Shown here one piece after another: positions 1,863 to 41,961 of a DNA stretch of 43,941 nucleotides. The notes below the pieces were generated by a model. It was not told where the DNA came from and searched no databases. It saw nothing but the letters and a program-made list of their open reading frames with translations. A program made the translations under genes and the position numbers. How positions within the stretch are numbered: the first letter of the stretch is position 1; each line of letters begins with the position of its first letter. The DNA comes from Opitutales bacterium (GTDB lineage: Bacteria > Verrucomicrobiota > Verrucomicrobiia > Opitutales > Seribacteraceae): positions 1-43,941 of the forward strand of contig JAOFOL010000016.1 of assembly GCA_028042835.1 (NCBI GenBank). Reading direction: 5' to 3'.

Positions 1863-2182
1863 TTAACCATATTAATAATTCTATCAAGCTTTATTAATGG
1901 ATTTTATCTTACATTGTATGCCAACGTTTATTGTATTCCATAGGATTCTTGCATTCTTAAGTATTGTAGATGCTATTAAAATTTTTAAGGCAGATTTGAA
2001 CAAACTTTCCCATAGCAAGCCAAGTACCCTACCCTCAACAATCCTGAGTCAAGCACCTCCTTCATTCTGAGTAGATCGCTCCAAATCAGATTACCGCAAG
2101 ACACATTAAGTAAGAATATTTTGTTCGATTCACCCAAGCCCTGTGCTTGCCTCCAATATCGCGAACGGTTAAAGAAGAATTT
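1863..2182. other. Intergenic region between divergent transcription units
   Basis: About 320 bp of AT-rich DNA between the minus-strand phosphatidyltransferase frame and the plus-strand sulfatase. It should hold promoters for both directions. I see no convincing -35/-10 pair, strong inverted repeat, RNA gene or further reading frame in it. Confidence 0.5.
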
Positions 2183-7459: not shown

Positions 7460-7467
7460 AATAAAGT

Positions 7468-8892
7468 ATGAATCAAAATAAATGCACCGGTTTTGAGTCC
7501 CCACTTGGTTTGCCCCGTAGAAAATTCCTTCAGCGTTTTGGTGGAGGACTGGGTGGATTGGCCCTCGCCAACATGCTTCATGCAGAAACCGGCTCCGGCT
7601 TACACCATCCCGCCAAAGCCAAACGGGTGATTTATTTATTCCAATCCGGTGGACCCTCTCAAATTGATTTGTTTGACCACAAACCAAGGTTAAATGAAGA
7701 AACGGGGAAGGAGCTTCCCGACTCCGTCCGTAAAGGACAGCGATTAACAGGTATGTCTGGAAATCAGGCCAGCCTTCCCTTAGTTGGTTCGCCCTTCAAG
7801 TTTTCTCAGCATGGTAAGAGCGGTCAATGGATCAGCGAATTATTACCAAACACTTCAAAAGTGGCGGATGATATGTGCATTGTGAATTCGATGTACACCG
7901 AAGCGATTAACCACGGTCCGGGGGTCACTTTTATGCAAACCGGCTCCCAATTCCCCGGTCGTCCGAGTATGGGGTCCTGGATGTCCTACGGTCTTGGATC
8001 GATAAATGAAAACCTGCCTAATTTCGTGGTCCTCAAAACAAAAGGCAAAGGTGGTCAACCCTTGGTTTCAAGACTATGGGGAAGCGGATTTTTACCCGGC
8101 AAACATGCGGGCACCCGATTCCGGGCGGATAAGGATGCCATTCTCTACCTGAACAGCCCCGAAGGAGTTTCAGCGGAAGGACGGCGTAATATGCTGGATC
8201 GTTTAAAAGAACTTCATGAACTCCAACTTGAAAAAACCGGAGATCCCGGCCTTGAAACGAAAATTGCTCAGTACGAAATGGGGTATCGAATGCAAAGCTC
8301 GATTCCTGAAGTCACCGCCATTGAAAAGGAACCCGAGTCCACTTTTAAACTTTATGGAGAAGATGCACGCAAACCAGGAACTTTCGCCGCAAATTGTCTA
8401 CTCGCACGGAGGTTAGCAGAAAAAGGAGTCCGGTTCATTCAACTTTATCACCCCGGTTGGGACCAGCACGGCGGATTACCTGGAGGAATCAAAAAACAAT
8501 GCAAGGAAACTGATCAGGCATCCTATGCACTGGTTAAAGATCTAAAACAAAGAGGAATGCTCAAAGACACATTGGTCATTTGGGGAGGAGAATTTGGACG
8601 GACCAATTATTGCCAGGGAAAATTCAACGGGACCAATTTTGGCCGCGACCACCACCCCCGAAATTTCTCAACCTGGTTTGCCGGTGGGGGAATTAAACCC
8701 GGTATGACTTATGGGCAATCAGATGATTACTCTTACAGTGTGGCAGAAGGCGGTGTTCATGTTCACGATTTTCATGCGACCATACTTCATTTACTTGGCA
8801 TTGACCATGAACGCCTGACTTTTAAGTACCAAGGTCGGCATTTCCGCCTGACAGATGTCCATGGACATGCTGTCAAACCAATGATCGGCTGA
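7468..8892 (+). CDS. DUF1501 protein, Tat-exported, partner of the preceding haem protein
   Basis: 474 residues. The N-terminus has a twin-arginine signal (PRRKFLQ, arginines 17-18, then a glycine/leucine-rich stretch), so it should be exported folded. DUF1501 proteins belong to the alkaline phosphatase/sulfatase-like superfamily. Likely metal-site blocks are present: GWDQHGG around 330-336, GGEFGRT, G392RDHH and H433DFHAT. No C-x-P-x-R sulfatase cysteine is seen, so it is not a formylglycine sulfatase. DUF1501 genes typically follow PSD1 genes, as here with 8 bp spacing. Substrate and reaction are unknown; phosphatase- or sulfatase-like hydrolysis on the same polysaccharide is a guess from the fold and context. 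Confidence 0.94.
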   Translation: MNQNKCTGFESPLGLPRRKFLQRFGGGLGGLALANMLHAETGSGLHHPAKAKRVIYLFQSGGPSQIDLFDHKPRLNEETGKELPDSVRKGQRLTGMSGNQASLPLVGSPFKFSQHGKSGQWISELLPNTSKVADDMCIVNSMYTEAINHGPGVTFMQTGSQFPGRPSMGSWMSYGLGSINENLPNFVVLKTKGKGGQPLVSRLWGSGFLPGKHAGTRFRADKDAILYLNSPEGVSAEGRRNMLDRLKELHELQLEKTGDPGLETKIAQYEMGYRMQSSIPEVTAIEKEPESTFKLYGEDARKPGTFAANCLLARRLAEKGVRFIQLYHPGWDQHGGLPGGIKKQCKETDQASYALVKDLKQRGMLKDTLVIWGGEFGRTNYCQGKFNGTNFGRDHHPRNFSTWFAGGGIKPGMTYGQSDDYSYSVAEGGVHVHDFHATILHLLGIDHERLTFKYQGRHFRLTDVHGHAVKPMIG

Positions 8893-22061: not shown

Positions 22062-25000
22062 ATGTCCTTAAAAAGTCTTTTAAATCTAAACTTCTATCAG
22101 CTTTTTTTCGTTTTCACTTTTAATAGCATGTGGGCGAATGTCGATTTCACCAATGAAGTCCGGCCCATCCTTTCCGAATACTGCTTCCACTGCCACGGTC
22201 CGGATAAGAGCACTCGTGAGGCCAAGCTTAGGCTTGATTTATCTGAAGGTGCCTTGCGCGATCTCGGCGGTTACTCGGCGGTTATTCCCGGTAAACCCGA
22301 GGATAGTGAGTTGGTCTTTCGGTTACACAGCGATGATAAAGACGAATTGATGCCTCCGCCTGAAACCGGCAAACGGTTATCCGAAAAACAAAAGAAAATC
22401 CTCGAAGAATGGATTAAACGGGGAGCTGTCTATGAGGAACATTGGTCATTTCTTCCAATTGATACACCCTCGGTTCCAACTAAGTCCACCAAAACTAAAT
22501 CCAAGCATCCGGTGGATCTTTTCTTGGCAAAGAGACTGGAATCAGAAGCTTATTCGTTTGCTCAACCAACAGAAAAGAAAACGCTTCTTCGTCGCCTCTA
22601 TTTTGACTTACTGGGCATGCCCCCAACCTTGATGGATGCCAATCAATTTTTAACGGATAAATCAGATAATGCTTACGACCAATTAGTCGACCGTTTACTG
22701 GCTGATCAAAGATTTGGGGAGCGAATGGCAGTACACTGGCTGGACCTTGTCCGCTATTCCGACACGATCGGCTATCACAGTGATAATTTCATGGAGGTCT
22801 CCGCATATCGTGACTATGTCATCGATGCCTTCAATGAAAATATGAGCTACGATCAATTCGTAATTGAAAACCTGGCCGGTGATCTCATCCCCGAGTCCAG
22901 CAAACGCCAAAAAATTGCCTCCGGATACAATCGTCTTCTTCAAACCACACAAGAAGGAGGTGCCCAGGCTGCCGAGTACACAGCCATTTACCAAGCCGAT
23001 CGGGTTCGAAACTTTGGGGTTGTTTGGTTGGGTGCGACGACCGGGTGTGCCCAATGCCATGATCACAAGTTCGACCCTTTTACAATTAAGGATTTTTATT
23101 CTCTCGCAGCCTTTTTTGCTGATCTTCAGGAAAAACCTGTGGGCAGACGAAACCCTAATCTCCTCCTTCCAACTCATGAGCAGGAAGTAAAACTCTCAGA
23201 ACTTGAACTGGATAAAAAAGAATCTGAACGAAAAAGAAACCTTCATAAACCAAAGATCCAGCAAGAAGAAAAGGAGTTAGCTAAAGAACTTAAAGAGATG
23301 CTTGCCAACTTCTTATATTCCGAACCAAACAAAGATGAAGTCCAGAAGAAGGAAAGAATTTTAGTCGAAGATTCTGCCCCGTCTGATGCGGATCTGAATG
23401 GTGAATGGAAACTTACAGAGCACCCTGTTTTCTCCGGATCAAAATCAATTATGCGGACTGGGCAGGGAAACAATCAGCACTACTTTATAAACTCTAAAAA
23501 CCCCCATCATGTTTTTTCAGAAGAGGATGAATTTTTTGCCTATGTATACTTAGACCCCAAGAATCCACCCAGGCAAATTATGCTGCAGTTTAACGACGGG
23601 AGTTGGTCGCGCCGTGCTTATTGGGGCGAATCCCTCATCCCCTATGGAAGAGAAAATACCACAAGCCGTATAAAAATTGGCCCATTGCCTGAGCTGGAAA
23701 AATGGGTTCGTCTTTCTGTAACAGCCAAAAAGATAGGCTTAAAAACAAAAGATAAAATCAACGGGATTGCCTTCACCCAGTGGGATGGAACACTTTATTG
23801 GGATAAGGTGGGAGTGAAAACAAAAATTGATCCCAGGCAAGACCCTGATCTTTCTCTCAAAAAATGGATATCACTTGCCAGAAATAACAAATCATTACCT
23901 GTAAACATTCAAACTCTAGCCAAGAAAGAAGAAAAAGATCGCTCGGAAACAGAAATACAATCTCTTTCTCAATATTTCCTAAATTTCGTTTACAAAAAAA
24001 TACCGGCGAATGTTGTGGAGATTCGAAAAAAACTACAAGAAACGAAGGGAAAAACAATCTCTTTAGATGCGGCTGTAAAAAAAGCAAACGATGCAATAAA
24101 AAGTCATAAAGACACCTTTCGAAGCATGCTGGTTTCCCAAACTGGCAATAATCGGATGGTACGAATACTTCCGCGGGGAAACTGGCTGGATCAGAGCGGT
24201 GAAGTGGTTGAGCCAGCCATTCCTGAATTCATGGGGAAATTGGACACTAAAGACCGTAAGGCCAATCGGCTCGATCTGGCAAACTGGGTGGTTAGCGATA
24301 ATAACCCCCTACCCGCCCGTGCCTTTACCAACCGTATTTGGAAAATGTTTTTTGGTTATGGATTGTCACGGAGACTCGAAGATTTAGGAGGTCAGGGGGA
24401 ACCTCCAACTCACCCCAAATTGCTTGACCACCTTGCATCTAAATTTCGAAATAACGGATGGGATGTGAAAAAGTTAATTCGTACTCTAGTTACCTCGGAT
24501 GCCTACAAGCAAAGCTCGGTACCCACAGAAAAACTTGCAAAAAATGATCCCCTCAACCGCCTTTACGCCAGACAGTCCAGGTACCGGGTGGACGCAGAGT
24601 TTGTAAGAGATACGGCTCTGTCAATCAGTGGTTTACTTGTTTCAGATATTGGTGGAACCAGTGTAAAACCATACCAACCAGCTGGGTATTGGCAGCACTT
24701 GAATTTCCCCGCACGTAAATGGCAAGCAGGCAAAGGTGACGATCTCTATCGCAGGGGGCTCTACACCTTTCACTGTCGTAGTTTTACCCATCCAGCCATG
24801 CTTGCCTTTGATGCACCAAGTCGTGAAGAATGCACTGCGGAAAGGCCCAGGTCCAACATTCCACAACAGGCGTTGGCCCTGTTGAACGATCCGGTCTTCG
24901 TGGAAGCCGCTCGTGTATTTGCTGAAAAACTTCTTACCCATTCCAACAAAGAGGATTTAGCGAAAATTCACTATGCTTTTCAATGTGCTCTGACCCGAAA

Positions 25001-25205
25001 ACCCACAAAGGAGGAGGTTCAAGTGATGACCGAACTCCTTTCCCAGCAAAGGAAACGTTATCAAGAGGATGAAGAGGCTGCTTTGGCTTTGGTGAAAACT
25101 GGACAGAAAAAATATAATACAAACCTGCCTGTCTCTGAACTGGCTGCCTGGACAAGTGTATCCCGCACCCTGCTCAATATGTATGAAACCACCGCCCGCT
25201 TCTAA
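22062..25205 (+). CDS. PSCyt1-PSCyt2(DUF1549)-PSD1(DUF1553) haem protein with beta-rich insert
   Basis: 1047 residues with a signal peptide (about 1-25). The PSCyt1 domain carries C41FHCH, followed by PSCyt2/DUF1549 with C329AQCH in CHDHKFDP. Residues about 370-425 are charged and look coiled-coil, and about 427-590 form a beta-rich block of the kind that could bind glycans; it is not LamG-like by eye. PSD1/DUF1553 covers about 720-985. It is the second of three such proteins here and is closer in its core to the 3704 protein than to the 29598 one. Its DUF1501 partner begins 13 bp downstream. Function is unproven; covalent haem suggests periplasmic redox chemistry. Confidence 0.95.
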
Positions 25206-25218
25206 ATTTGCCAGAACC

Positions 25219-26637
25219 ATGAATCCTACTTTTATCAATCGCAGAACTTTTTTAAACCAAGCTACCGTGGGAATTGGTTCAACCGCCCTCTCGAGTATGC
25301 TCGCAGGTAATGCAATGGCTAATCCCCAAGCTTGGCCTGCCAACCTCCCCCCGCATGCGAAACTAAGTGGAAATCCGAAAGCCAAACGGGTCATTTTTCT
25401 CTGTATGGCTGGAGGTCCTTCTCACTTGGAAACTTTTGACTACAAGCCCAAGCTCAAGGAAATGGATGGTAAACCCATGCCTGAATCCATTACTAAGGGT
25501 CAACCCGTCGCCCAGTTACAAGGTAAGCAATTGAAATGCTTCGCTCCTCAACTGGAATTCAAAAAATGGGGAAAGTCCGGTCAGTATTTCAGCTCTGCAT
25601 TTCCTAAGATTGGGGGGATAGCAGACGATATCTGTATCGTCCGTTCAATGACCACTGAACAGATCAACCATGACCCGGCTCATACATACATGAACACAGG
25701 TACACAAATTTCCGGACGTCCAAGTATGGGATCGTGGGTGCTGTATGGGTTAGGTGCCGAAACCAATAACCTTCCAGGATTTGTGGTACTTACCTCAGTG
25801 GGTGGTGGGCAAAACCAGCCGATTGCATCCCGGCAATGGCACAGTGGATTCCTTCCAAGTAAATATCAAGGTGTTCATTTTCATAGTAAAGGAGACCCGG
25901 TTCTTTATCTGAGTAATCCCAATGGGGTAACCAATAAAGATCAACGATCGGTAATCGACTCCGTAAACCAGTTAAACCGTATTGGAAACCTTACGCTCCG
26001 GGATCCAGAAATTTCGACAAAAATCAGCCAATATGAAATGGCATTTCGCATGCAGGCGAGTGTGCCCGATTTGATGGACGTTTCCAATGAACCCAAGCAT
26101 GTGCTCGATATGTACGGAGCAAAACCGGGAGATGGATCCTTTGCCAGTAATTGTCTACTGGCAAGAAGGCTGGCAGAACGGGATGTACGCTTCATTCATC
26201 TATACCACCGTGGATGGGACCATCATGGTGGGGTAAAAAATAATGTTCAAAAAACGGCCAATCTTGTGGATCAGGGTTCGGCTGCCCTTGTACAGGACTT
26301 AAAGCAACGCGGAATGCTGGATGATACTCTCGTGGTTTGGGGCGGTGAATTTGGACGCACTCCGATGGCGCAGGGAAATGGACGTGATCATCACATTAAA
26401 GGCTTCTCAATCTGGATGGCGGGCGGTGGAATCAAAGGGGGGATTTCCTACGGAAACACCGATGAACTTGGATATAATGCAGAAGAAAATGTGGTTCATG
26501 TTCGTGATTTTCATGCCACCATGCTTCATCAATTGGGCATTCAATCTCAATTCTTTACTCATAAACACCAGGGACTGGATTTCAGGCTAACCGGGGTGGA
26601 TGAGGAAGCTCATATCATTAAAGGCATACTTTCCTGA
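25219..26637 (+). CDS. DUF1501 protein, Tat-exported, second copy
   Basis: 472 residues from the ATG at 25219. An upstream GTG in frame would overlap the preceding gene and push the twin-arginine signal (NRRTFLNQ, then hydrophobic) away from the N-terminus, so it was rejected. Metal-site-like blocks match the first copy: GWDHHGG, GGEFGRT, G388RDHH and RDFHAT with H432. It belongs to the alkaline phosphatase-like superfamily but lacks the sulfatase cysteine motif. It follows its PSCyt/PSD1 partner by 13 bp. The 160 bp after it hold no clear terminator. Confidence 0.94.
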   Translation: MNPTFINRRTFLNQATVGIGSTALSSMLAGNAMANPQAWPANLPPHAKLSGNPKAKRVIFLCMAGGPSHLETFDYKPKLKEMDGKPMPESITKGQPVAQLQGKQLKCFAPQLEFKKWGKSGQYFSSAFPKIGGIADDICIVRSMTTEQINHDPAHTYMNTGTQISGRPSMGSWVLYGLGAETNNLPGFVVLTSVGGGQNQPIASRQWHSGFLPSKYQGVHFHSKGDPVLYLSNPNGVTNKDQRSVIDSVNQLNRIGNLTLRDPEISTKISQYEMAFRMQASVPDLMDVSNEPKHVLDMYGAKPGDGSFASNCLLARRLAERDVRFIHLYHRGWDHHGGVKNNVQKTANLVDQGSAALVQDLKQRGMLDDTLVVWGGEFGRTPMAQGNGRDHHIKGFSIWMAGGGIKGGISYGNTDELGYNAEENVVHVRDFHATMLHQLGIQSQFFTHKHQGLDFRLTGVDEEAHIIKGILS

Positions 26638-29597: not shown

Positions 29598-32500
29598 ATG
29601 CTCCTTCTATGCATGAGAATTACATTTCTGGTGTTTTTATCTCTTGGGTTAAACTGTTTTACATCTGCAGCCAAAGAAAAGTTCTTATGGAATTTCGATG
29701 AGGAGATTGATGCATATAAAGGGGTTGGTAAAGTCACTTTCAAACAACCTGGCCCACGCCCTCCTGAGTTTCCGGATCTGTCAAAAAATAATCAATCCAT
29801 TCGCCTGGGAGGAAGCGGAAGCAGAATTGTAATCCAAGACCCGGGAGAGGATAGCCATTATGATTTTACCAACGGGGATGAAATTTCCATCACCGCATGG
29901 GTAAAACTGGAAAAATTCAGTGCTCATCCCGCCTACATAATTGGAAAAGGAAGAACCCATAACCCAGGTTTTGGTAAAGATAATCAAAACTGGTCACTTC
30001 GCGTAGTCGGTGAAGATAGCTTGAGTAAATTAAGTTTTCTATTTTCAACTGGAAGTAATAAATGGCACCGTTGGACATCAAAACTGAGCTTTGATCCCTA
30101 TGCGGGATGGCATTTTATAAGTTTTAGTTACCGTTTTGGAGATCCCGAAAGCATAAAAGCCTGGATTGATTCCTTGCCAACTCCAGGTGCGTGGGACCTC
30201 AACGGTCCGACCAAGAATCCACCTGTTACTGATAATGATGAAATATGGATCGGCTCATCCATGGGTGGTAATTCGGGAAACAGCTTTACAGGGTGGGTGG
30301 ACGAAATAACTCTCAGTCGAAAAATTTTGAATGACAATTTGGTAAGACAAAAATTCAAGCGTGAGAGAGGCCCAAAAGTAGTCAAATGGGAGCCATCCAA
30401 AATGCCGGAAATGGGCAAAATCGAATCAGGTCAGGTATTGGTTCAGATTATTGAAGGTTTAAACTCATTCATGTCTTGGCCCAGAAACCTCGAGCAAAAG
30501 ATGCCAGGCACGGAATGGGAACAACCCTCGTTTTTTCTGCCAAGAATTCCCTACGCCTACGATTTATGGGGTATTCGGGACAAATGGAATGCCCCAATTT
30601 TACTCAGAATGGCGGCGGATCTAAAACTTCCAGGTGGCCAAAACCGCTTTCTGATAAGAGCCCGGGGTCTTTCGAGGCTTTGGATAGATGGAGAGGAAGT
30701 TCTTTCCACAAAACCAGCCTCTGGTAGAAGAAATGACGGACATAGCCCTGTTACCCCATTGGCAAAAGCTCCCAAAGAAAATCTTCGAGTCAAGGGATAT
30801 CATCAGCAGGAAGTGGAAGGATTTCTTTCCGTAGAAAACGAAGGGATCAAAAGAATCGTTTTCGAGCAGATTGTTGGGGGTACCAACCAAAGAACTGAAA
30901 CTGGCGAGACCCTCGTTGCCATGGAAAGTAAAGATGGGAAATTATATCATCTCCTCACTCCCGCGGCAGATAATATGCCGGTTTTGAATGACAAGGAAGT
31001 CAAGAGAGCCCTCGAAACAACAGATTCATTGCTATCATTGTTCGATGCACACCGAAGGAGGCAACTTGCCCGTTCGCAGGATGTAATCTGGAAGAAACGA
31101 AGAGAAGTTCAAAGAGAATGGCTTTCAAAACAGCCAATTCTTCAAAAAGAAATCTCATCGCGCCAAATTGATAATTACATTTCGCAAAAAATGACCCATC
31201 TAAAAAAAGACTCAGGTGGAAGTGATGATTTAGCCTCTTCAGCATTCAATATTTTAGAGCAAAATTGTTTCCGTTGCCATGGAAGCAAAAAGAAAAAAGG
31301 GGAACTGGATCTGAGCGAAAGACAAACTGCCCTGATTGGTGGAGAATCAGAACTTCCGGCAATCATTCCTGAAGACCCTATGGGCAGTGAAATTATGGCA
31401 CGCATCATCTCGGAGGATGAAGATTTGATAATGCCGCCATCGGGTGACCATCTGATTAAAGAGGAAATTGATGTGATCGGAAAGTGGATTCAACAAGGGG
31501 CGAAGTGGAAAAGCCCTCAACATTCTCTCATGTTAGAAGTCCCTGCTTCAGCGGATGACTATACTTTTATTCGAAGAATTTATTTCGACTCAGTGGGCAT
31601 TCCGCCAAGTCCTGAAGAAATCCGCTCGTTTGCTGATGATCAAGACCCACAGAAACGGGATAAAATGATCGATACACTTCTCGCCAAAGATGAAGTGGTG
31701 GATAATTGGATGGGAGAATGGCTCGATCTTTTGGCGGAAAACCCCACCCTTCTCAACCAATCCCTTAACAGTACAGGGCCATTTCGCTGGTTCCTACACG
31801 AGTCATTCATCGATCAAAAACCTCTCGATCGGATCGTAACCGAATTGATTTTGATGAGAGGCGACTCTGCCAGGGGAGGAAGTGCCGGGTTTGGCCAAGC
31901 TGCGGAAAATGACGCACCCTTTGCGGCCAAGGCACATATCATTGCGTCTTCTTTTCTGGGGGTAGAGATGCAATGTGCCCGATGCCATGATGCCCCCTAT
32001 CATTCATCAAAACAGCGTGATCTCTTTTCCTTATCCGCAATGCTCCAACGAAAACCAGTCAAGGTTCCCGCATCCAGCCGGGTACCCGCATCTTTCTTCG
32101 AACATAAAGGCCGAAAATCTTTGATTGAGGTTACGCTCAAGCCGAATGAAACCATTTCCCCCACTTGGTCCCTTAAGGAATTCATAGACCCCACAAAATC
32201 AACAAGCCTCGAACATCTGTTAACTAATAAACAAGATTCGCGTGAAAGATTGGCCATGCTGGTTACCTCCCATGAAAACAAAAGGTTTGCCAAGGTGATC
32301 GTTAACCGGATTTGGAAAAGGCTCATGGGTGCAGGCATTGTGGAACCTGCCCATGACTGGGAGGGCAATCAACCGAGTCATCCTGAGCTTTTGGATTGGC
32401 TCGCGATCAAGCTGGTTGAATTCGAATATGACCCACGAGCCATTTTCAAATTAATCATGAAATCGAATGCATACCAGCGGCAGGCAATTGGAAAAAATGC

Positions 32501-33266
32501 TCAAAGCAATCATCTTTCTCGTGTATTTCTTTCCCCTGACCCCAGAAGGCTTAATGCTGAGCAGGTGGTGGATGCACTGCATTCTTCGACTCATCAGAAA
32601 ATAGACTCCGAAATTCTAACTTTTGTCTTTGACGGAGGAAGGTCGCTGAAACAAAGAAACACGCTCGGCAAACCTACAAGAGCATGGATGATGGGAACCC
32701 TAAACAATTCAAGGGATCGACCCAGCCTAGCGAAGCCCAAGGCACAAACCATTGTAAATGTGATGAAAGCATTTGGATGGACAGGCACCCGGCAAAAACC
32801 AGTTCATCAGCGGGAAAGAGACCCGAATGTCCTCCAGTCAGGTATTTTGGCAAACGGAGTACTGGTCAGTAATGTTGCAAGAGTTTCAAATCAGAGTTTC
32901 CTTGCTGAGATTGCATTGGATTCTAAAAGTGCGCCTGAATTGATCGAAAATATTTTTCTGCGATTCCTCGGCAGACTACCCAATCAAAGAGAGCAAATAA
33001 GTGCACTTGATCTGATAAAAGCTGGTTTCGAAAATCGCATTATCCCAAAGGCTGATTCACATAAACCAGAAGAACTAGAAAAACTGCCCTTGATTACCTG
33101 GTTTAATCATCTCAGCCCGGAAGCTACAACCATTCAAATCGAGGTTGAAAAACAGGTTCGCCAGGGCCCACCGGTCGATCATCGGATTAACCCTGACTGG
33201 AGGGAGAGATACGAAGATCTGATATGGAGTTTGATCAATCACCGGGAATTTGTCTGGTTAAATTAA
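29598..33266 (+). CDS. LamG / PA14-like / PSCyt1 / PSCyt2 / PSD1 haem protein, divergent type
   Basis: 1222 residues; an ATG five codons downstream (29613) would give an equally good signal peptide. Residues about 30-260 form a LamG/concanavalin-like domain. About 330-430 look PA14-like ([20 protein letters not shown]). Only then come PSCyt1 with C557FRCH and PSCyt2 with C793ARCH, where the usual CHDHKYDP is CHDAPYH. PSD1 lies at about 875-1135. Here the glycan-binding-like modules are N-terminal, unlike the 3704 protein where they sit between PSCyt2 and PSD1. The DUF1501 partner starts 19 bp later and is divergent too, so this pair seems to be a separate lineage rather than a recent local duplicate. 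Reaction and substrate are unknown. Confidence 0.93.
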
Positions 33267-33285
33267 TAAACAAAAACGAGAAGCC

Positions 33286-34569
33286 ATGAATAGACTGACA
33301 CGACGAAATTTCGTAAAAGCTGGATCCCTAACAGGATTCTGTCTTCCTGCACTGACGCAAGCAAAACAGATAGCCAGCGGTAACCCAATGGGAAAGACGG
33401 AGCATGTGATTTCCATATGGCTGGGTGGCGGAATGGGGCAGGTTGATACTTTTGACCCTAAACGCAAAGGAGACCCAAAAGAGAAAATTCCCGGCTCTTA
33501 CTATGATTCAATCGATACCGCAGTGACCGGCGTACAACTCTGTGAACATTTGCCCAGAATTGCTCCTTTAATGGACCGGATCACGGCTGTTCGTTCGGTT
33601 AACCATAAAGTAATCGACGAACACGCAGCCGCCACCAATTTTATGCACACCGGTCGGGCAATCAGCGGAACCGTCACCTACCCTTCCATTGGGTCATTGA
33701 TTGCCCATGAGCGTGGCCCCGCCGATGATTCAGCTCCGGCTTATGTAGTCATCGGATATCCCAATGTCACCCGTGGTCCTGGATTCCTCGGATCAAAACA
33801 TGGATATCTTTATTTGACCGACACATCCCAAGGACCTGCAGGTCTATCCCGTCCGAAAAACATTACCAGCTTTAGGCAGGATCGGAGAAACAGGCTTTTG
33901 GCAGATTTAAGAAACTCAACAGGAAGGCCGGAAGATCCCCGTCTTGCCGGCTACGATGAGATCATTGATGAAAGTATTCGCTTAAGCGGTCCTTCTTTTA
34001 ACCGTGCATTCGAGTTAGACAACGAGCCAAGTACACTTCGTGAGAATTATGGAGGTGAATTTGGTCAGCGCTGCCTGCTTAGTCGAAGACTTATCGAAAG
34101 AGGAGTCCGTTTCGTCGAAGTGTCCCATAATCTTAACTTTCTAAATGGTACTGGGTGGGATGTGCATAATCAGGGAATCCTAAATCAGCATGAATTGATC
34201 AGGGAAATGGATAATGCAGTTTCCGCCCTCATTCTCGATCTGGAAAAGAAGAGTTTACTGGATAAAACTTTAATCATGATTACCACCGAATTTGGTCGAC
34301 CACCTGAATTTGATGGCGGAGGCGGCCGTGGACACCAGGGGAAAGCTATGACCTGTGTGCTGGCAGGAGGCGGATTGAACCACTGCGGGGCATACGGACA
34401 GACTGATGAAATTTCCAAAAAAATTGTTGAAAACCCAGTCTCTGTTCCCGATTTTTTTGCCACCGTTTGTGCCGCAATGCAAATCGACTCCGGTAAATAT
34501 CTTTATGATGGTGATCGCCCAGTCCCTATCACCGATAACGGAAACCCGATCAAGCAGCTTTTTTCCTAA
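33286..34569 (+). CDS. DUF1501 protein, Tat-exported, divergent third copy
   Basis: 427 residues, about 45 shorter than the other two copies. [10 protein letters not shown] is a twin-arginine signal. Conserved family blocks are altered: GRDHH of the other copies is GRGHQ here (348-351), and DFHAT is DFFAT with F391 in place of the histidine. TEFGRP replaces GGEFGRT. If those histidines bind metal, this copy has a changed or lost site. It is paired with the equally divergent PSCyt/PSD1 protein 19 bp upstream and precedes the EF-hand sulfatase by 77 bp. Confidence 0.92.
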
Positions 34570-34646: not shown

Positions 34647-36488
34647 ATGTCTTTGTTTAAACTCATCTGTCTGTTTTTTTGTGGGTTCAGCGTGCTGTGT
34701 TTTTCAGCAAATAAACCCAATGTTTTGTTGATCGTTTGCGATGATCTGAATGATTATGTAGAAACTCTTGGTGGTCATCCCCTAACCAAGACGCCTAATA
34801 TCCGAAAATTGATTGAGAGTGGCGTATCCTTCACTCAGGCACATTGCAATATTCCAATCTGCAACCCTTCCCGGGCAAGCTTTGCCACAGGCATTTATCC
34901 CCATACCTCTCAACAGTTCGGCTTTGAAGATTGGGATAAAAATGAAATCCTAAAAAATTCCCGAACCATGATGGATCATTTTGGAAAAAATGGGTACCAT
35001 ACTTTGGGTACCGGTAAAGTAATGCATAGCCGGGATCAGCAGGAATGGAATGAATTTGGTCATCCGTCCGACTACGGCCCGTTCCTCTACGATGGTAAAG
35101 ATAAGATCCCCAACCTGAGTGTACCCAAGCCATTCAGGGATGACTTTGGAATTATTGATGGAAACTTTGGACCACTTGAAAATCTTACGGATAAAAAATC
35201 ATCCAATACCGGAAATAACTATAGCTGGCTAACTGGTGGTTGGCGAAAGCAAAGGGAGATGAAATATAATTCAGATGACGACCGCGATCCAACTGGAGAT
35301 GAACTCAATGCCCAATGGGCTGTTAATCGACTTACCGAACTTGCAAAATCGAAAGAGGAAAAACCTTTCTTCATGGGTGTTGGCTTTGTGCGTCCACACA
35401 CGCCTTTAATTGTACCTCAAAAATACTTTGACCTCTTCCCACTGGAGTCTATTAAATTACCAAAAATCTTGAAAGGAGATGCTGAGGACACATTTAAGCA
35501 TACCGTTACTTCAAAGGAGGATGATCGCAGTGGGGACCGTGGAACGAAAATGTATGACAGCCTCATTGCATCTTATGATGGTGATCGCGAGTTGGCCTTG
35601 AAAAAATTCATTCAGGCCTATCTTGCATCAGTCGCATCAGTCGATGATTTAGTGGGAGAGATTTTGGAAACTCTCCAAGAAACCGAACTGGACAAGAGCA
35701 CGATTGTGATATTCACCAGTGATCATGGTTGGGGAAATGGTGAGAAAGATTACCTCTATAAAAACTCGCTTTGGCAGGAAAGTACACGCGTACCTCTTAT
35801 TATACGAGCACCAGGTGTGTCCGAAGAAAATAAGGAATGCGAACAACCTGTCTCACTGGTTGATTTATACCCCACCCTACTCGACTTGTGTGGGTTACCA
35901 GACAATACCATGAAAAATGAAAAGGGTCGTCCTTTAGACGGTTTTTCAATGAAACCGTTCCTTAACGATCCTAAAAATGGAAAATGGGATGGACCAGAGT
36001 ATGCCATTACTGCCCTCTACAAATGGGCACAGTACTATGATCCTGCTTTTCAGAATTATTCCCTTCGCTTCAAGGACTGGCGATATATTCGCTACGAAAA
36101 TGGTAAGGAAGAGCTTTATCACACAGCCAAAGATGATCACGAATGGAATAACTTGGCTCAGAATTCAAATTTCGGGGAAAAATTAGCCGGATTCCGTAAG
36201 CAACTTTTATCAATCATTCCTGAAAGTATTCCAGAAAAACCAAAGAGTAATGAGTATTGGAAGGACCAGTATTTTAAGAAAAACCCATCTGCTGATACGA
36301 ATGCGGACGGAACTCTGTCATGGGCCGAACTCACAGCCCATAGGAAAATGTCCGAAGAGGAAAAAAAAGTCCTACAAAATGAACATTGGAAAACATCCTA
36401 TTTAAAAAAGAATCCGACTGCGGACAGCAATAATGATGGCATGTTGTCCTGGCCAGAATTTCACGCCCATAAAAAAAACAAGGGGTGA
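34647..36488 (+). CDS. Secreted sulfatase with two C-terminal EF-hand motifs
   Basis: 613 residues with a signal peptide (about 1-21). CDDLND and C72NPSR are the metal and formylglycine sites of S1 sulfatases; the form resembles iduronate-2-sulfatase-like enzymes. TSDHGWG is the second metal block. After the sulfatase domain (to about 530), two calcium-binding loops follow: D550TNADGTLSWAE and D593SNNDGMLSWPE, each preceded by a similar helix with KKNP. EF-hands appended to sulfatases occur in PVC bacteria and may stabilise the protein in calcium-rich sea water. It lies in the same direction as the divergent PSCyt/DUF1501 pair. Confidence 0.94.
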   Translation: MSLFKLICLFFCGFSVLCFSANKPNVLLIVCDDLNDYVETLGGHPLTKTPNIRKLIESGVSFTQAHCNIPICNPSRASFATGIYPHTSQQFGFEDWDKNEILKNSRTMMDHFGKNGYHTLGTGKVMHSRDQQEWNEFGHPSDYGPFLYDGKDKIPNLSVPKPFRDDFGIIDGNFGPLENLTDKKSSNTGNNYSWLTGGWRKQREMKYNSDDDRDPTGDELNAQWAVNRLTELAKSKEEKPFFMGVGFVRPHTPLIVPQKYFDLFPLESIKLPKILKGDAEDTFKHTVTSKEDDRSGDRGTKMYDSLIASYDGDRELALKKFIQAYLASVASVDDLVGEILETLQETELDKSTIVIFTSDHGWGNGEKDYLYKNSLWQESTRVPLIIRAPGVSEENKECEQPVSLVDLYPTLLDLCGLPDNTMKNEKGRPLDGFSMKPFLNDPKNGKWDGPEYAITALYKWAQYYDPAFQNYSLRFKDWRYIRYENGKEELYHTAKDDHEWNNLAQNSNFGEKLAGFRKQLLSIIPESIPEKPKSNEYWKDQYFKKNPSADTNADGTLSWAELTAHRKMSEEEKKVLQNEHWKTSYLKKNPTADSNNDGMLSWPEFHAHKKNKG

Positions 36489-36910: not shown

Positions 36911-39900
36911 ATGTTTCATAGCACAGCCTGTCTAATAATCAGCTTACTTCCTGTTGTCTGTTCTTTTGCATTAGGAGGAATAATAGCTCCCCCCAACATT
37001 CTTGTTTTCCTGATGGACGATATGGGAATTGGAGATTCCCGAGTATACAATAAGAACAGCAAGGTATCGATGCCCAATTTGGAAAAATTAGCTGCTGCAG
37101 GAATGACCTTCACCGATGCCCATGCACCAGCCGCCGTATGCGCTCCCACTCGTTACAGTGTTATGACAGGGAACTATCCATGGCGTGGGAGAAATCCGAA
37201 CGGCACCTGGTTATTTAATATGCCATCTCAGGTTTTGAGGGGGCAACAAACTGTTGGACAGTTAATGAAAAAAGTGGGTTATCATACTGCCTTTCTGGGA
37301 AAGGTTCATTTAGGAGGAAAAGTATTCAGTAAATCAACGGGTAAACCCAAGCTTAGTATGAAAGGTGGATTTAATGACTTTGATTTTGGGCGAAAAGTTG
37401 AGAACACTCCTGCATCCCTTGGCTTTAACTATGCCTATGAACTGCCTCAAGGGATTCAGGGCTCTCCATATATCGCAATTGAAAATGGAATACTTGTTGG
37501 TGATGCTGCAAAGCTCAGGGAGTGGAAAACGGGTACTTACGGTAATTCAGTCATTGAGGCAGATGGTTTTGGTTCACCCGATTGGGATTCGTCCATGGCG
37601 GGTCCGGTTTTAACCGAAAAAGCATTATCTTTTCTCAAAAAACATTCTGAAAATAATGAAGAAAGAGGAATACGAAAACCGTTCTTCATGTATTATTGGA
37701 GCCAGTCTTGTCATGTTCCTCATACCCCTCCTGATGAACTGATGGGGGAAAAAGTAAAAGGTGCATCGCTGGACGCTCATCTGGATATGTTGATGGAGGC
37801 TGATATTAGCCTAGGGAAAATAATGGAGACTCTCAAAGCGAATGGTGAACTGGAAAATACACTGATTATCTTCACCAGCGATAATGGGGGTTTATCCCGT
37901 GGTCTTCCTGGAAAGCACAAAGGTGGGCACAATTCCAATTCAGGCTTTCGAGGAAGTAAAGCACAGGTATATGAAGGAGGCCATCGGGTTCCCTTTATCG
38001 CCCGATGGGGAAATGGGAAACAAAATTCACCTATTAAACCGGGTACCCTTTCCGATGCATTAATTGGTCTGCAGGATCTCTATGCAACATTTGCTGAAAT
38101 TACTTTTCAGCCTATGCAAATATCTGATGGTTTAGACAGCCAATCCTTCTTAGGAACTCTGCTTGGAAAAAAGGGCGAAAAAACCCGTTTGTCCATTCTT
38201 ATTCAGGCAAACAATGGCAAATATCATGGACAACAATCGAAGAAGTCTGTGAGGGAAAATTCATGGAAATTAATATGCACCAAAGATCTCAAACCCATTG
38301 AATTGTATAACCTCGCCAATGATCCTATGGAAAGCCAAAACCAGATTGCAGAAAAATCTCAACTAATTCGGGTAAACCGAATGAGTTCAGAACTGAAGAA
38401 AATTTTAAATTCATCCAGAAGTACCGACCCTTTTCTTTTAGAAACTGGAGAAAATAAACATACGAAGCCCAAAATTCATTCCGAGCAACTTTTTTCCCCT
38501 AAAGCAAATCTGCTTTGTCAGATTAAAATACCCAAGGGAAACGAAGTCCAAAATTGGGGAGGTAAATGGAAGGTTGAAGGGAAAAGCCCCATGAGGATTT
38601 CACTGAGTCCGAAAGCGGGAGATAAATGGGATATCAGTGGTTACAAACTTGCCGGCATTCCCATTCAAAACTGGGAACAAGGCGTCACCACCATTGAAGG
38701 AAAATTGAACAATGGAAACCTTACGAGTTGGTCGCACCATGCCGTTGGATTTGCCGTAGCTCCGAGTTGGGAAAAAACCACCTTGGGGTTCCCCTTTCCT
38801 ATGATTGAAGATCGCTATCAGGGCTCGGACCTTTTTAAGGATCAACTCGCAAAACCAAATGGTCATCGCGTACATTGGAGGAGATTCTTTCCGGAAGATA
38901 TCCGTGAAATCATTTTGGATCTAACCTCCTCTTCCGGGAAAATCAATATACTCATTGGTGCACCAGTTCTAGGTTGGCAAAATAATAAGGAGATTAATAA
39001 AAAATTGGAAAGTCTTCCCTATCTCGATGAACTTGGACAGGTCAGTGCCATTCATTGGCCAGGCAAAGCGAACAACCTAGAGGATGCAAGGGACACGATG
39101 CAATCAGAGTTCAAACAAGCTAAAAAAGAAGCCAAGGATAAGAGACTCAGTAAATTTGGTGGATGGATGGATGGTCCGAAAATGAAAGCAAGCGGGCGGT
39201 TCCGCACTCAAAAGGTGGATAAAAAATGGTGGCTGATTGATCCGGATGGTTATTTATTCTTTTCTGTCGGCCCTTGCCTTACCGGAAACCGTGCCGAAAC
39301 ACTCGCCATTCCCAAAAGAACGAACACGTCCTTTTTTAACTACATCCCCGGGGAGAAGGACTACCTAAAATGGACGGGGTTACGAAAAACAGGAGGAAGA
39401 CAGTATGTGAATTTCCCAGCTTTAAACTATAGGCGTTATTTTGGAGATAAATGGGAGGAAACAGTCAATCAGGGAACGCATGATCGCCTGAGGGCGTGGG
39501 GACTAAACACCCTTGCCTGCTGGTCAGATGAAAAATTGCAAAAAGATAAAAAAACACCCTACACATTAATCTCTTCCATTTGGTGGCAAAGCAGTGGACA
39601 CAGAAAATTCCCCTCCCCTTTTCGAGCAGATTTTCAATCCGACTTGGAAAAAAACCTTAGAAAACTGGCATGGGCAAAAAACGATCCATTTTGTCTGGGA
39701 ATTTTCATGGGGAATGAATTGGAATGGCCGGATCGGATTGGGGAAACCATACAAAAGCTTCCAGGAGACCACCCGACTAAAATTTGGGCAGTCAATGAAT
39801 TAAAAAAACGGGGCAAAAATAATTTACCCGCAAAAGTAAAAGATTTGGATGAACTCTATCTCCCATTCGTAAAAGCGTTCTTTCAAAAATGTAAAACTGC

Positions 39901-40411
39901 GATCGATAAGGAGCTTCCCGGCACCCTCTTTTTAGGTTGTCGTACGCATAGGGGTCCAAATGTACTAGGTCGTGGGGCACTCGGTTCTGTGGATGTGTTT
40001 TCGGTCAATGTATATGACTCCAGAGTTCGTTCATGGCAGGTGCCCGTTGACGCAGATATTCCTATTCTCTCCAGTGAGTTCCATTTTGGGGCAGTCGATC
40101 GTGGAGTGCCAAGCCCAGGTTTATCGGGCTCATGGGATCAGAGACAAAGAGCTTTATCCTTTGCACATTACCTTGCTTCAGCCCTAGCTGATCCTAGGTT
40201 TGTCGGCGTACATTGGTTCCAGTGGATTGACCAATCTGCAGCAGGTAGAAAAGATCGTGAAAACCATCAATGTGGTTTCATCGATGTCGCAGGCAAAGCT
40301 TATCCAGAACTTGTCAATGTAGTCTCCAGAGCAACCGAAAACATGTACATGGCCCGAAGAAAAACAAAGCAAAAAACCGAAAATATTCTGTTTGAACTGT
40401 TAAAAAATTAA
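36911..40411 (+). CDS. Sulfatase fused to GH50-like beta-agarase
   Basis: 1166 residues in one open frame. A signal peptide (about 1-22) leads into a complete S1 sulfatase (about 25-505) with MDDMG, C77APTR and SDNGG. Residues about 530-720 are beta-rich and resemble the CBM-like domain that precedes the barrel in GH50 agarases. The barrel runs from about 745 to 1150: KWWLIDPDGYLFFSVG opens it, F-M-G-N-E936 fits the acid/base position, and SSE1056FHFGAVDRG fits the nucleophile; VGVHWFQWID and GFIDV are further agarase-like blocks. GH50 enzymes cut beta-1,4 links in agarose. One polypeptide could thus remove sulfate and cut a sulfated galactan outside the cytoplasm. The next sulfatase starts 11 bp later. 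Confidence 0.9.
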   Translation: MFHSTACLIISLLPVVCSFALGGIIAPPNILVFLMDDMGIGDSRVYNKNSKVSMPNLEKLAAAGMTFTDAHAPAAVCAPTRYSVMTGNYPWRGRNPNGTWLFNMPSQVLRGQQTVGQLMKKVGYHTAFLGKVHLGGKVFSKSTGKPKLSMKGGFNDFDFGRKVENTPASLGFNYAYELPQGIQGSPYIAIENGILVGDAAKLREWKTGTYGNSVIEADGFGSPDWDSSMAGPVLTEKALSFLKKHSENNEERGIRKPFFMYYWSQSCHVPHTPPDELMGEKVKGASLDAHLDMLMEADISLGKIMETLKANGELENTLIIFTSDNGGLSRGLPGKHKGGHNSNSGFRGSKAQVYEGGHRVPFIARWGNGKQNSPIKPGTLSDALIGLQDLYATFAEITFQPMQISDGLDSQSFLGTLLGKKGEKTRLSILIQANNGKYHGQQSKKSVRENSWKLICTKDLKPIELYNLANDPMESQNQIAEKSQLIRVNRMSSELKKILNSSRSTDPFLLETGENKHTKPKIHSEQLFSPKANLLCQIKIPKGNEVQNWGGKWKVEGKSPMRISLSPKAGDKWDISGYKLAGIPIQNWEQGVTTIEGKLNNGNLTSWSHHAVGFAVAPSWEKTTLGFPFPMIEDRYQGSDLFKDQLAKPNGHRVHWRRFFPEDIREIILDLTSSSGKINILIGAPVLGWQNNKEINKKLESLPYLDELGQVSAIHWPGKANNLEDARDTMQSEFKQAKKEAKDKRLSKFGGWMDGPKMKASGRFRTQKVDKKWWLIDPDGYLFFSVGPCLTGNRAETLAIPKRTNTSFFNYIPGEKDYLKWTGLRKTGGRQYVNFPALNYRRYFGDKWEETVNQGTHDRLRAWGLNTLACWSDEKLQKDKKTPYTLISSIWWQSSGHRKFPSPFRADFQSDLEKNLRKLAWAKNDPFCLGIFMGNELEWPDRIGETIQKLPGDHPTKIWAVNELKKRGKNNLPAKVKDLDELYLPFVKAFFQKCKTAIDKELPGTLFLGCRTHRGPNVLGRGALGSVDVFSVNVYDSRVRSWQVPVDADIPILSSEFHFGAVDRGVPSPGLSGSWDQRQRALSFAHYLASALADPRFVGVHWFQWIDQSAAGRKDRENHQCGFIDVAGKAYPELVNVVSRATENMYMARRKTKQKTENILFELLKN

Positions 40412-40422
40412 AGAGAAGTATC

Positions 40423-41961
40423 GTGAAATTTATAAACCTAGGCTGGCTTTTCTTTCTCTTTATCGTTTCTACATTTGCAGAAACTCGACCGAATATTCTT
40501 TTTCTATTTAGCGATGACCACGCCCTTCGGACCATTGGTGCATATCCTGGATCAATCAACAACACCCCTAATCTGGATCGTATAGCCAGAGAGGGTGCGC
40601 TTTTTACTAATTCATTCAATGTGAATTCAATCTGTTGCCCAAGCCGGGCAGCCATTCTTACCGGCAAACACAGCCTGGCAAACGGAGTGATTGGGAACAG
40701 TTCAAAATGGAATGGTAAACAATGGGTCTTCTCAAGGGAAATAGGTAAATCTGGTTACCAAACCGGGCTCATTGGAAAATGGCACCTCAAAGGAAATCCG
40801 ACAGATGAATTTCAGAGCTGGGAAATTCTTTCCGGTAAAGGAGGACAAGGGTCTTATTTTAATCCAACCTTTCTTTCCCCAAACGGGGAAAGCAAAGTAA
40901 CAGGACATTCCACTAAGATCATCACAGACAAAGCACTTCGGTGGTTGAAAAAACGAGATCAAAAAAAACCTTTCTTACTTTGTGCTCAGTTTAAGGTGCC
41001 ACATATTCATCGCCTCCCTCCCATTAATCGTATGAATGGATACGATGGCATAGAATTTCCGGTTCCAGAAACTTTTTTCGATGATTTTTCCTCCCGCTCT
41101 TCTTTTGTCTCAGAGACATGGATGGCACTCAAGGGGATGAAGGGAAATGTATTAAATATTGCTCCAACAAAGGAGGAAATAGATAAGAACCCAAAAATTC
41201 GTCCACCATTTCTACATGAGATGAATTCCAAACAGCGAAAAGCCTGGCATTCAGCTTATGACCCAAGAAACTTGCGGTACCGAAAATTAATTCAGGAAGA
41301 AAAATTGCAAGGCAAAACAAAATCACTTTATATATATCAACGATTTATAAAAGATTATGTTCGTTGTGTTGACGGACTGGACGATCAGATTGGAAGGATT
41401 CTAAATTTCTTAGATGAACAAAATTTAACCGAAAATACATTGGTCATTTATAGTTCAGATCAAGGATTCTTCACCGGAGAACATGGATGGGCAGAAAAGA
41501 GATGGATGTACGAAGAAAGCTTTAAGTCTCCCCTACTTATGCGTTGGCCGAAAATGGTTAAACCGGGAACAAGAATTACTCAACTAGTCCAGAATATCGA
41601 TTTGGCTCCGACATTCATGAAGGCAGCCGGACTGATTCCACCTGAAACGGTTCATGGGATTGCACTTCAACCCATTTTATCAAACCCCTCCTCTCGATCA
41701 TGGAGAAAAGATATATTATACCAATATTTTGACGGAGGAACTCGTGAAAACAGAGGTCCTTACAATATGCCAAGGCATGAGGGAATTCGGGATACAAGGT
41801 ATAAATTGATTTCTTTTTACGATTATAAAAAGTGGGAGTTTTATGACCTAAAGAATGATCCCGAGGAACTACATAACCTCTTTAATCAGGAATCTATGAA
41901 GTTCGAGGTCAATCGGTTGCAAAAAAGGCTCCGAATTAAAAAAGCAGAATTTGGGCTTTAA
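40423..41961 (+). CDS. Secreted sulfatase (N-acetylglucosamine-6-sulfatase-like S1 type)
   Basis: 512 residues from a GTG start that places a clean signal peptide (about 1-19, ending TFAE) at the N-terminus. FSDDH is the first metal block and C71CPSR the formylglycine site (C71). SSDQGFFTGEHGW resembles the second metal block of the glucosamine-6-sulfatase/heparan-type subgroup. YEESFKSPLLMRWP is also typical of that group. It lies 11 bp after the sulfatase-GH50 gene, so they are co-transcribed. Its true substrate may be a galactan rather than a glycosaminoglycan. Confidence 0.94.
   Translation: MKFINLGWLFFLFIVSTFAETRPNILFLFSDDHALRTIGAYPGSINNTPNLDRIAREGALFTNSFNVNSICCPSRAAILTGKHSLANGVIGNSSKWNGKQWVFSREIGKSGYQTGLIGKWHLKGNPTDEFQSWEILSGKGGQGSYFNPTFLSPNGESKVTGHSTKIITDKALRWLKKRDQKKPFLLCAQFKVPHIHRLPPINRMNGYDGIEFPVPETFFDDFSSRSSFVSETWMALKGMKGNVLNIAPTKEEIDKNPKIRPPFLHEMNSKQRKAWHSAYDPRNLRYRKLIQEEKLQGKTKSLYIYQRFIKDYVRCVDGLDDQIGRILNFLDEQNLTENTLVIYSSDQGFFTGEHGWAEKRWMYEESFKSPLLMRWPKMVKPGTRITQLVQNIDLAPTFMKAAGLIPPETVHGIALQPILSNPSSRSWRKDILYQYFDGGTRENRGPYNMPRHEGIRDTRYKLISFYDYKKWEFYDLKNDPEELHNLFNQESMKFEVNRLQKRLRIKKAEFGL

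Follow-up and report, generated by a model that had tools for sequence, protein, structure and literature searches.

The gene at 36911–40411 on the forward strand of the window (the whole stretch of DNA that was analysed, 43,941 nucleotides from a marine bacterium) encodes an S1 sulfatase and a GH50 glycoside hydrolase in one polypeptide of 1166 amino acids. The fusion is genuine and is common to two phyla, the Verrucomicrobiota and the planctomycetes. We lean towards the interpretation that the product is a two-domain enzyme for sulfated galactan, in which one polypeptide would carry out desulfation and then exo-cleavage. The protein is probably secreted, as judged from its hydrophobic N-terminus.

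The fused gene and its conservation

The open-reading-frame call gives a single frame at exactly 36911–40411, in agreement with the sequence-only reading, which had placed both enzymes in one uninterrupted chain. The same reading had raised the possibility that a stop was missed, or two pieces wrongly joined, at 38400–38500. This was looked for and is ruled out: 19 of the 20 rows of alignment A1 keep the stretch in frame, and the remaining row (L070) is cut by a contig start. Here lies the linker (residues 501–530, 38411–38500, forward strand), which is variable in sequence and in length (27–43 residues) and is in frame wherever a row has the region. Its identity is below that of both flanking domains in comparisons with the relatives L061, L062, L068 and L083, but not with L069. 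Wherever a close relative shows the junction, it is fused: 16/16 in the genome's own family and 22/22 in GTDB contigs, two sets that overlap, some relatives being cut by contig ends. The earlier reading had proposed a count of similar fusions in Verrucomicrobiota; 12 of the 22 GTDB relatives belong to that phylum and 10 to the planctomycetes. The probability that an assembly or sequencing artefact fused two adjacent genes is negligible. Nothing beyond the incompleteness of the genome (110 contigs, 63% complete) speaks for it, the identical junction in separate assemblies from two phyla speaks against it, and the conservation of the junction among relatives rules out an assembly join.

In the GH50 tree the fused rows, 23 in number, group with the truncated L070 into a single clade (SH-aLRT 100), and none of 500 label shuffles was as clustered. 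The sulfatase and GH50 halves diverge together (Mantel r=0.963, n=18, with 0/9999 permutations as high). Both are under purifying selection: compared with L069 and L061, the three domains give dN/dS values of 0.07–0.20. In relatives more distant than these two, dS reaches saturation in several parts. Two planctomycete genomes carry a triple architecture, sulfatase–GH50–sulfatase. Its third domain is S1_19-like, with an exo-4S-kappa-carrageenan sulfatase as best match (E=6.4e-99). This likeness is to the galactose-4-sulfate carrageenan sulfatases and, at the level of sequence, points to a sulfated galactan as substrate. The window sulfatase at 2147–3637 was considered as a relative of the third domain, which the tree puts elsewhere.

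The two catalytic halves

The N-terminal half (residues 28–498, 36992–38404, forward strand) is, by its motif and its metal and catalytic residues, an S1 formylglycine sulfatase, with predicted hydrolysis of sulfate esters. Pfam assigns residues 28–397 to Sulfatase (PF00884, E=2.3e-42) and residues 350–498 to SGSH_C. The formylglycine motif C77-A-P-T-R is at 37139–37153 (forward strand), its C, P and R occurring in all 18 rows that have letters there, and C77, P79, R81, D36, D37, K131, H133, H268, D324, N325 and K350 are invariant wherever lettered (17–19 of the 20 A1 rows). The proposal of a complete S1 sulfatase with C77-APTR is thus borne out. The top solved matches of this half in the PDB search are S1_15 sulfatases, namely 6s20/BT3333 (8.4e-51), 9bau (S1_15B, 2e-47) and 7oze, with E from 8e-51 to 8e-45. 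The matched chains are single sulfatases with an Asp/Arg pair, whereas the fusion has Q183/G184 and a GH50 domain. In S1_15 this pair, D173/R174 of BT3333, reads the galactose O4 (PMC6994673); on our own reading it corresponds to the first and second residues (D-R) of the DRVP motif of 6s20 (chain positions 175/176, an offset of 2). The pair is absent here: the aligned residues are Q183/G184, Q-G is found in 19/19 A1 rows with the region, and the motif QGIQGSPY stands in place of DRVP. Therefore, the 6-sulfate specificity of S1_15 is not transferable to the sulfatase half. The genome has 12 matches above cut-off to the FGE-type domain PF03781.

The C-terminal half (residues ~519–1150) is GH50 by sequence and predicted fold, with both catalytic glutamates kept. 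The Pfam search yielded no family at E≤1 past residue 500. The C-terminal 648 residues alone matched the PDB GH50 agarases AgWH50C (5z6p, E=1.7e-47), PfGH50B (6xj9, 4.5e-47) and Aga50D (4bq2, 1.4e-45). The predicted model of this half had a pLDDT of 87.1 and a pTM of 0.90, and in the Foldseek search of the PDB ranks 1–17 were all GH50, with query TM of 0.69–0.72 at ranks 1–15 and 0.47 for BpGH50. Prediction of the full-length structure was poor (pLDDT 61.3, pTM 0.52); the domain arrangement therefore cannot be read from that model, which was set aside. A CBM-like N-terminal beta-sandwich (residues ~519–690, 38465–38980, forward strand), overlapping the linker end, is seen in the predicted model of the half, and the Foldseek alignments to 5z6p, 6xj9 and 4bq2 span the whole half. 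The barrel (residues ~723–1150, 39077–40360, forward strand) has both sequence and fold matches in the PDB. The three solved beta-agarases share the CBM-like domain, the barrel and the two catalytic glutamates; they differ in having no sulfatase, and the identity in the structural alignment is 20–24%. E936 (39716–39718, forward strand) aligns with chain position 491 of Aga50D and with a Q in 4bq4, a variant of 4bq2, and E1056 (40076–40078, forward strand) aligns with chain position 652; we take the counterparts to be E534 and E695 of Aga50D. Both glutamates are invariant in the 20 rows of A1 and the 28 sequences of A2. The CBM-like region, the GH50 barrel and the candidate catalytic residues E936 and E1056 named at the outset all stand. 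The contrary case, a C-terminal half outside GH50 or without catalytic glutamates, was checked, and the opposite was found.

Precedents and genomic setting

PDB entry 6hr5 carries the paired names of a GH78 alpha-L-rhamnosidase and a sulfatase, and is presumably P36 of Formosa agariphila. P36 (S1_25–GH78) likewise unites two enzymes of a single pathway, an S1 sulfatase and a glycoside hydrolase, in one polypeptide, and its domains work one after the other on the non-reducing end of ulvan oligosaccharides (PMC8511951, PMC8360166). Removal of sulfate at the non-reducing end followed by cleavage of the sugar has been shown biochemically for P36 (PMC8511951); we infer this order for the S1–GH50 fusion, which also has two intact catalytic domains in one chain. 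P36 differs in its unrelated glycoside hydrolase family (GH78), in its S1 subfamily, in its substrate (ulvan) and in its phylum (Bacteroidota). The pairing of GH78 with a sulfatase also occurs in N. ulvanivorans (PMC8360166). Gene fusions of the same kind are described, at the level of annotation, within the same superphylum: GH10 and GH32 with S1_7 and GH29 with S1_15 in PVC bacteria (PMC6388578), and sulfatase–glycoside hydrolase fusions in planctomycetes (PMC4807772). GH50 is not named as a partner in the portions of these two sources that we drew on. Neither the S1–GH50 pairing nor the sulfatase–GH50–sulfatase triple was found in the published literature searched. The earlier statement that the architecture is not a standard one thus holds for the pairing, which is new to the literature searched, and not for sulfatase–glycoside hydrolase fusions as a kind, which are already known (PMC6388578, PMC4807772, PMC8511951).

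Two further sulfatases flank the fused gene. The upstream one (613 aa, 34647–36488, forward strand) accompanies the fusion in syntenic position in both phyla, a relation supported by its tree; among the 15 loci shown with that region, 13 have a relative on the upstream side. The downstream one (512 aa, S1_11-like, 40423–41961, forward strand; its mechanical start is 11 nt past the fusion stop) recurs downstream of the fusion in 5/8 Verrucomicrobiota loci. 7lha is among its matches, and a role as porphyran L-galactose-6-sulfatase was considered; of the triad D361/R363/H447 of BT4656 (PMC6994673) it keeps only R, the others being E and Y, so this reading is not relied on. Around unfused GH50 genes, a sulfatase ORF lies inside the ~1.5-kb flanks in 9/43 loci, an unpicked count from sulfatase-rich genomes, and nearby in 8 of 14 hand-picked loci (6 of 11 distinct places). 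By the unpicked count, a sulfatase neighbourhood of GH50 is no general rule. One unfused sister GH50 (L191) adjoins a PF01120 fucosidase-family gene. Searches of the genome, which is 63% complete, gave neither a second match to the GH50 half nor a GH16 match; GH16 is found in 15/27 members of the genus and the GH86-type Porphyrn_cat_1 in 1/27. A classical agarolytic system is therefore not evident in this incomplete genome.

Proposed action, alternatives and other long frames

We infer the substrate, the order of steps and their coupling as follows. The protein would be exported and its C77 converted to formylglycine. The S1 sulfatase would take a sulfate ester off a galactose-type residue, which most likely lies at the non-reducing end or close to it. 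The GH50 domain, in which E936 would serve as acid/base and E1056 would be the nucleophile (roles that we carry over from Aga50D), would then cut the beta-1,4 galactan bond beside the freed residue and give a neoagarobiose-like disaccharide. An exo-acting agarase should be blocked by sulfate groups; owing to the tether, one molecule could pass sulfated residues that would halt a lone exo-agarase. This interpretation is supported by the domain content with its catalytic residues, the conserved fusion, purifying selection, co-divergence of the halves, the single fused clade, the S1_19-like domain, the 12 PF03781 matches and the P36 precedent. Counting against it are the low identity to agarases, Q183/G184, the sparse sulfatase neighbours of unfused GH50 genes, the missing GH16 and second GH50 matches in the incomplete genome, and the case of Pontiella, strains of which have GH50, GH86 and GH117 genes and did not grow on agar (PMC7356697), which advises caution in deducing agar use from GH50.

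The same low identity, the Pontiella strains (PMC7356697), the patchiness of GH16 and GH86 in the genus, the PF01120 gene at L191 and the replacement of DRVP by QGIQGSPY would also fit a GH50 half that is not an agarase and acts on another beta-galactan (e.g., phytoplankton sulfated galactan), with the sulfatase serving that polymer. GH50-like genes are widespread in Verrucomicrobiota (126/387 genomes match at E≤0.001) and are present in Tannerella-type Bacteroidota, and the family is therefore broader than the known agar users. Yet GH50 enzymes, mostly agarases, make up all of the top matches by fold and by sequence, and the third domain of the triple resembles carrageenan galactose-4-sulfate sulfatases; we regard this alternative as rather unlikely. 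Somewhat more doubtful is that the fusion merely co-delivers two pathway enzymes without kinetic coupling, with a linker that may be cut after secretion. The poor conservation of the linker suits it, as do the nine unfused loci with a sulfatase neighbour, where the enzymes presumably work, and the separate study of the P36 domains (PMC8511951). Retention of the fusion in every junction-showing relative of two phyla argues against it, as does the gain of an extra sulfatase in one lineage.

Tentatively, the preferred reading of coupled desulfation and exo-cleavage may be extended to a single-chain machine built stepwise. An S1 sulfatase of undescribed specificity would feed a tethered exo-GH50, and a planctomycete lineage would have added a C-terminal S1_19-type sulfatase, so that two different sulfates are removed and the chain is cut in turn. 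If so, these GH50s would use sulfated agars closed to free GH50 agarases. Coupled desulfation and cleavage, if natural, would explain the use of sulfated galactans by some marine Verrucomicrobiota and planctomycetes. In that case the fusion to GH50 would also give a substrate hint for an uncharacterised sulfatase clade, and the enzyme could serve as a one-pot tool for sulfated agars. The series of separate genes, two-domain and three-domain fusions makes the functional link between sulfatase and GH50 directly testable.

Two other long frames were considered as fusions and rejected: the second long sulfatase frame of the genome (C20, 1062 aa, containing a TAA) resolves into two separate ORFs of 557 and 540 aa, and a porphyranase-type frame of 1625 aa (G038) has FGE-like and cadherin domains and no sulfatase domain. 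A scan for upstream promoters and terminators gave no more matches than shuffles did. Among viral contigs, 56 stretches fit a pattern and none encoded a relative. In the phylum samples, the profile search found no sulfatase domain in the GH50 frame at 15 and 10 fetched places with further long GH50 frames. At least two of these frames (G297 and G406) are tandem GH50 proteins, and four plasmid records have distant GH50 matches at 25–28% identity.

Domain composition of the fused protein

The frame at 36911–40411 on the forward (+) strand runs for 1166 codons without a stop. Pfam assigns residues 28–397 to a sulfatase domain (E=2.3e-42) and residues 350–498 to an SGSH_C region, and gives no match at E≤1 past residue 500. 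The C-terminal 648 residues, searched alone, match the GH50 agarase structures 5z6p (1.7e-47), 6xj9 (4.5e-47) and 4bq2 (1.4e-45); the match to BpGH50 5t3b is weaker (2.9e-12). A model of the GH50 half, with 28 aligned sequences as input, reached pLDDT 87.1 and pTM 0.90, and its top 17 Foldseek PDB matches are GH50 throughout. The candidate catalytic residues E936 and E1056, kept in 28/28 GH50 sequences, align with chain positions 491 and 652 of 4bq2, the former being Q in the variant 4bq4. We take these positions, at an offset of 43, to be E534 and E695 of Aga50D, and presume the catalytic roles likewise. The hydrophobic N-terminus is read as a putative secretion signal.

In the sulfatase half, neither the formylglycine motif C77-A-P-T-R nor the residues of metal binding and catalysis vary in any aligned sequence reaching those positions. 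The nearest solved structures are 6s20, a GalNAc-6-sulfatase (8.4e-51), and 9bau, of S1_15B (2e-47). PMC6994673 describes an Asp/Arg pair that reads galactose O4 in S1_15 (D173/R174 of BT3333), and we equate this pair with D-R in the DRVP motif (175/176 of the 6s20 chain). Q183/G184 of the fusion align there, within a QGIQG(S/P)PY motif conserved in 19/19 sequences. Because they replace the Asp/Arg pair, one specificity-defining feature of S1_15 is absent; judged from its sequence, this half is an S1 sulfatase for which S1_15 is nearest among solved structures.

Spread, co-inheritance and novelty of the fusion

The GH50 half was matched in 24/42 genomes of the window's family. All 16 strong matches carry a sulfatase upstream in the same frame (among them loci L034 and L042, truncated on the 5' side, and L046, truncated on the 3' side); the remaining eight are weaker and have no sulfatase in frame. 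A search of GTDB contigs, a set that shares organisms with the family set, returned 45 loci. At 22 of them an N-terminal sulfatase and GH50 occupy one frame, 12 in Verrucomicrobiota and 10 in planctomycetes as judged from record titles, some being near-identical and three (L062, L067, L071) cut by contig ends. The others are L070 and L090, truncated short of the junction, and 21 distant loci (28–36% identity) whose frames contain no sulfatase. When the two phyla were sampled evenly, the fused clade, judged from the top of E-value-ordered match lists, was seen in the source genome alone (1/387 and 1/392); it is therefore rare outside these groups.

Against the two nearest relatives, the sulfatase, CBM-like and GH50 parts have dN/dS (Nei–Gojobori) values of 0.07–0.20. 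Over 18 sequences, distances in one half follow those in the other (r=0.963, a value that 0/9999 permutations reached), which shows co-inheritance and is not evidence of function. One fused gene, L068:3441-6935, is a mosaic: it is 94–95% identical to the window at residues 1–300, 51–66% at 401–1000 and 89% at 1001–1100, which suggests recombination within the sulfatase half.

Sulfatase–GH fusions are described from Kiritimatiellales, Polaribacter and planctomycetes in PMC6388578 and PMC4807772. Searches of open-access papers turned up neither an S1–GH50 fusion nor a sulfatase–GH–sulfatase triple, which is weak evidence that these are absent from the literature. The fusion thus appears to be a new pairing within a known kind. 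According to PMC4807772, two planctomycetes have 34 and 21 sulfatase genes of multi-domain type, whose partners are "most often" GH and hypothetical domains; the S1–GH50 or triple type could be among them.

Unfused relatives, triple proteins and origin

In a GH50 tree of 102 non-redundant sequences (quick method without bootstrap, midpoint root), all 23 fused sequences and the cut L070 form one group (SH-aLRT 100). Its starred sister group comprises L145, L106, L116 and L108, the last two being parts of tandem GH50 frames; a 37-sequence group containing the fused clade has support 92 and is not starred. By raw count, a sulfatase ORF lies within about 1.5 kb on either side of an unfused GH50 at 9/43 loci from the two phylum samples (L106, L108, L109, L110, L111, L112, L121, L123, L155), and six of these (L106, L108, L110, L111, L121, L123) fall in the 37-sequence group. 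At L191 the GH50 ORF and the sulfatase ORF, both called mechanically, share 17 bases. Tandem GH50–GH50 frames were seen in other Verrucomicrobiota at L131:1282-5391 (1370 aa), absent from the tree, and L132:1370-4942 (1191 aa), whose genome supplied L116 of the sister group.

In two planctomycete MAGs the fused frame runs on into a second sulfatase with a CGPSR motif, giving sulfatase–GH50–sulfatase triples at L077:505-5517 (1671 aa) and L078:3369-8396 (1676 aa). Pfam finds two sulfatase stretches in the latter, and L090:1-1845, cut by the contig start, has the same C-terminal domain order. The top solved match of the third domain of L078 is the exo-4S-kappa-carrageenan sulfatase 6prm (E=6.4e-99), placed in S1_19 by PMC12549532, and the third domain of the triples appears S1_19-like. 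In the sulfatase tree this domain joins a free sulfatase that in L072 and L076 lies two genes upstream of the fusion (support 88/71, not starred), and next the sulfatases adjoining unfused GH50s at L111 (95/91) and L106 (100/99). For the first sulfatase half, the closest free sequence is the gene adjoining the GH50 of genome G122 (L110; 97/90, long branch). Such placements are the pattern that neighbouring genes merging into one chain would leave.

Gene neighbourhood and proposed action on sulfated galactan

Two more sulfatases flank the fusion on the same strand, at 34647–36488 and 40423–41961, the latter beginning 11 nt past the fusion stop. A relative of the former lies directly upstream of the fusion at 8/8 Verrucomicrobiota and 5/7 planctomycete loci (L072, L074, L075, L076, L080); L077 and L078 have DUF1501 genes in its place. 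The downstream enzyme is S1_11-like, with the D/R/H recognition triad aligning as E/R/Y, and has a counterpart downstream of the fusion in 5/8 Verrucomicrobiota loci. The FGE-domain family is broad and includes the sulfatase-maturing enzyme; the source genome has 12 FGE-domain matches above cut-off. The window also holds three PSCyt/PSD1 + DUF1501 gene pairs in 44 kb (3704-8892, 22062-26637, 29598-34569), a sulfatase preceding one and following another, and several planctomycete fusions are flanked by genes similar to such pairs.

Both domains of the fusion are complete, conserved and co-inherited. They would act consecutively on sulfated galactan, the sulfatase desulfating the chain end before the GH50 of the same polypeptide cleaves it, a course that we regard as somewhat probable. 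A precedent for successive steps by the sulfatase and GH domains of one protein comes from Formosa agariphila: the S1_25 and GH78 domains of its P36 act one after the other on ulvan oligosaccharides, at the non-reducing end (PMC8511951). The weakest step is agar as the substrate. Two Pontiella strains that carry GH50, GH86 and GH117 genes showed no growth on agar (PMC7356697); this result and the 9/43 neighbour count make the mechanism slightly less likely. GH16 occurs in 15/27 members of the genus and a GH86-type domain in 1/27; neither was found in the source genome, which is incomplete. In a congener, G038, a single 1625-aa frame (L186:1718-6595) combines porphyranase-type and FGE-sulfatase-like domains with cadherin repeats.
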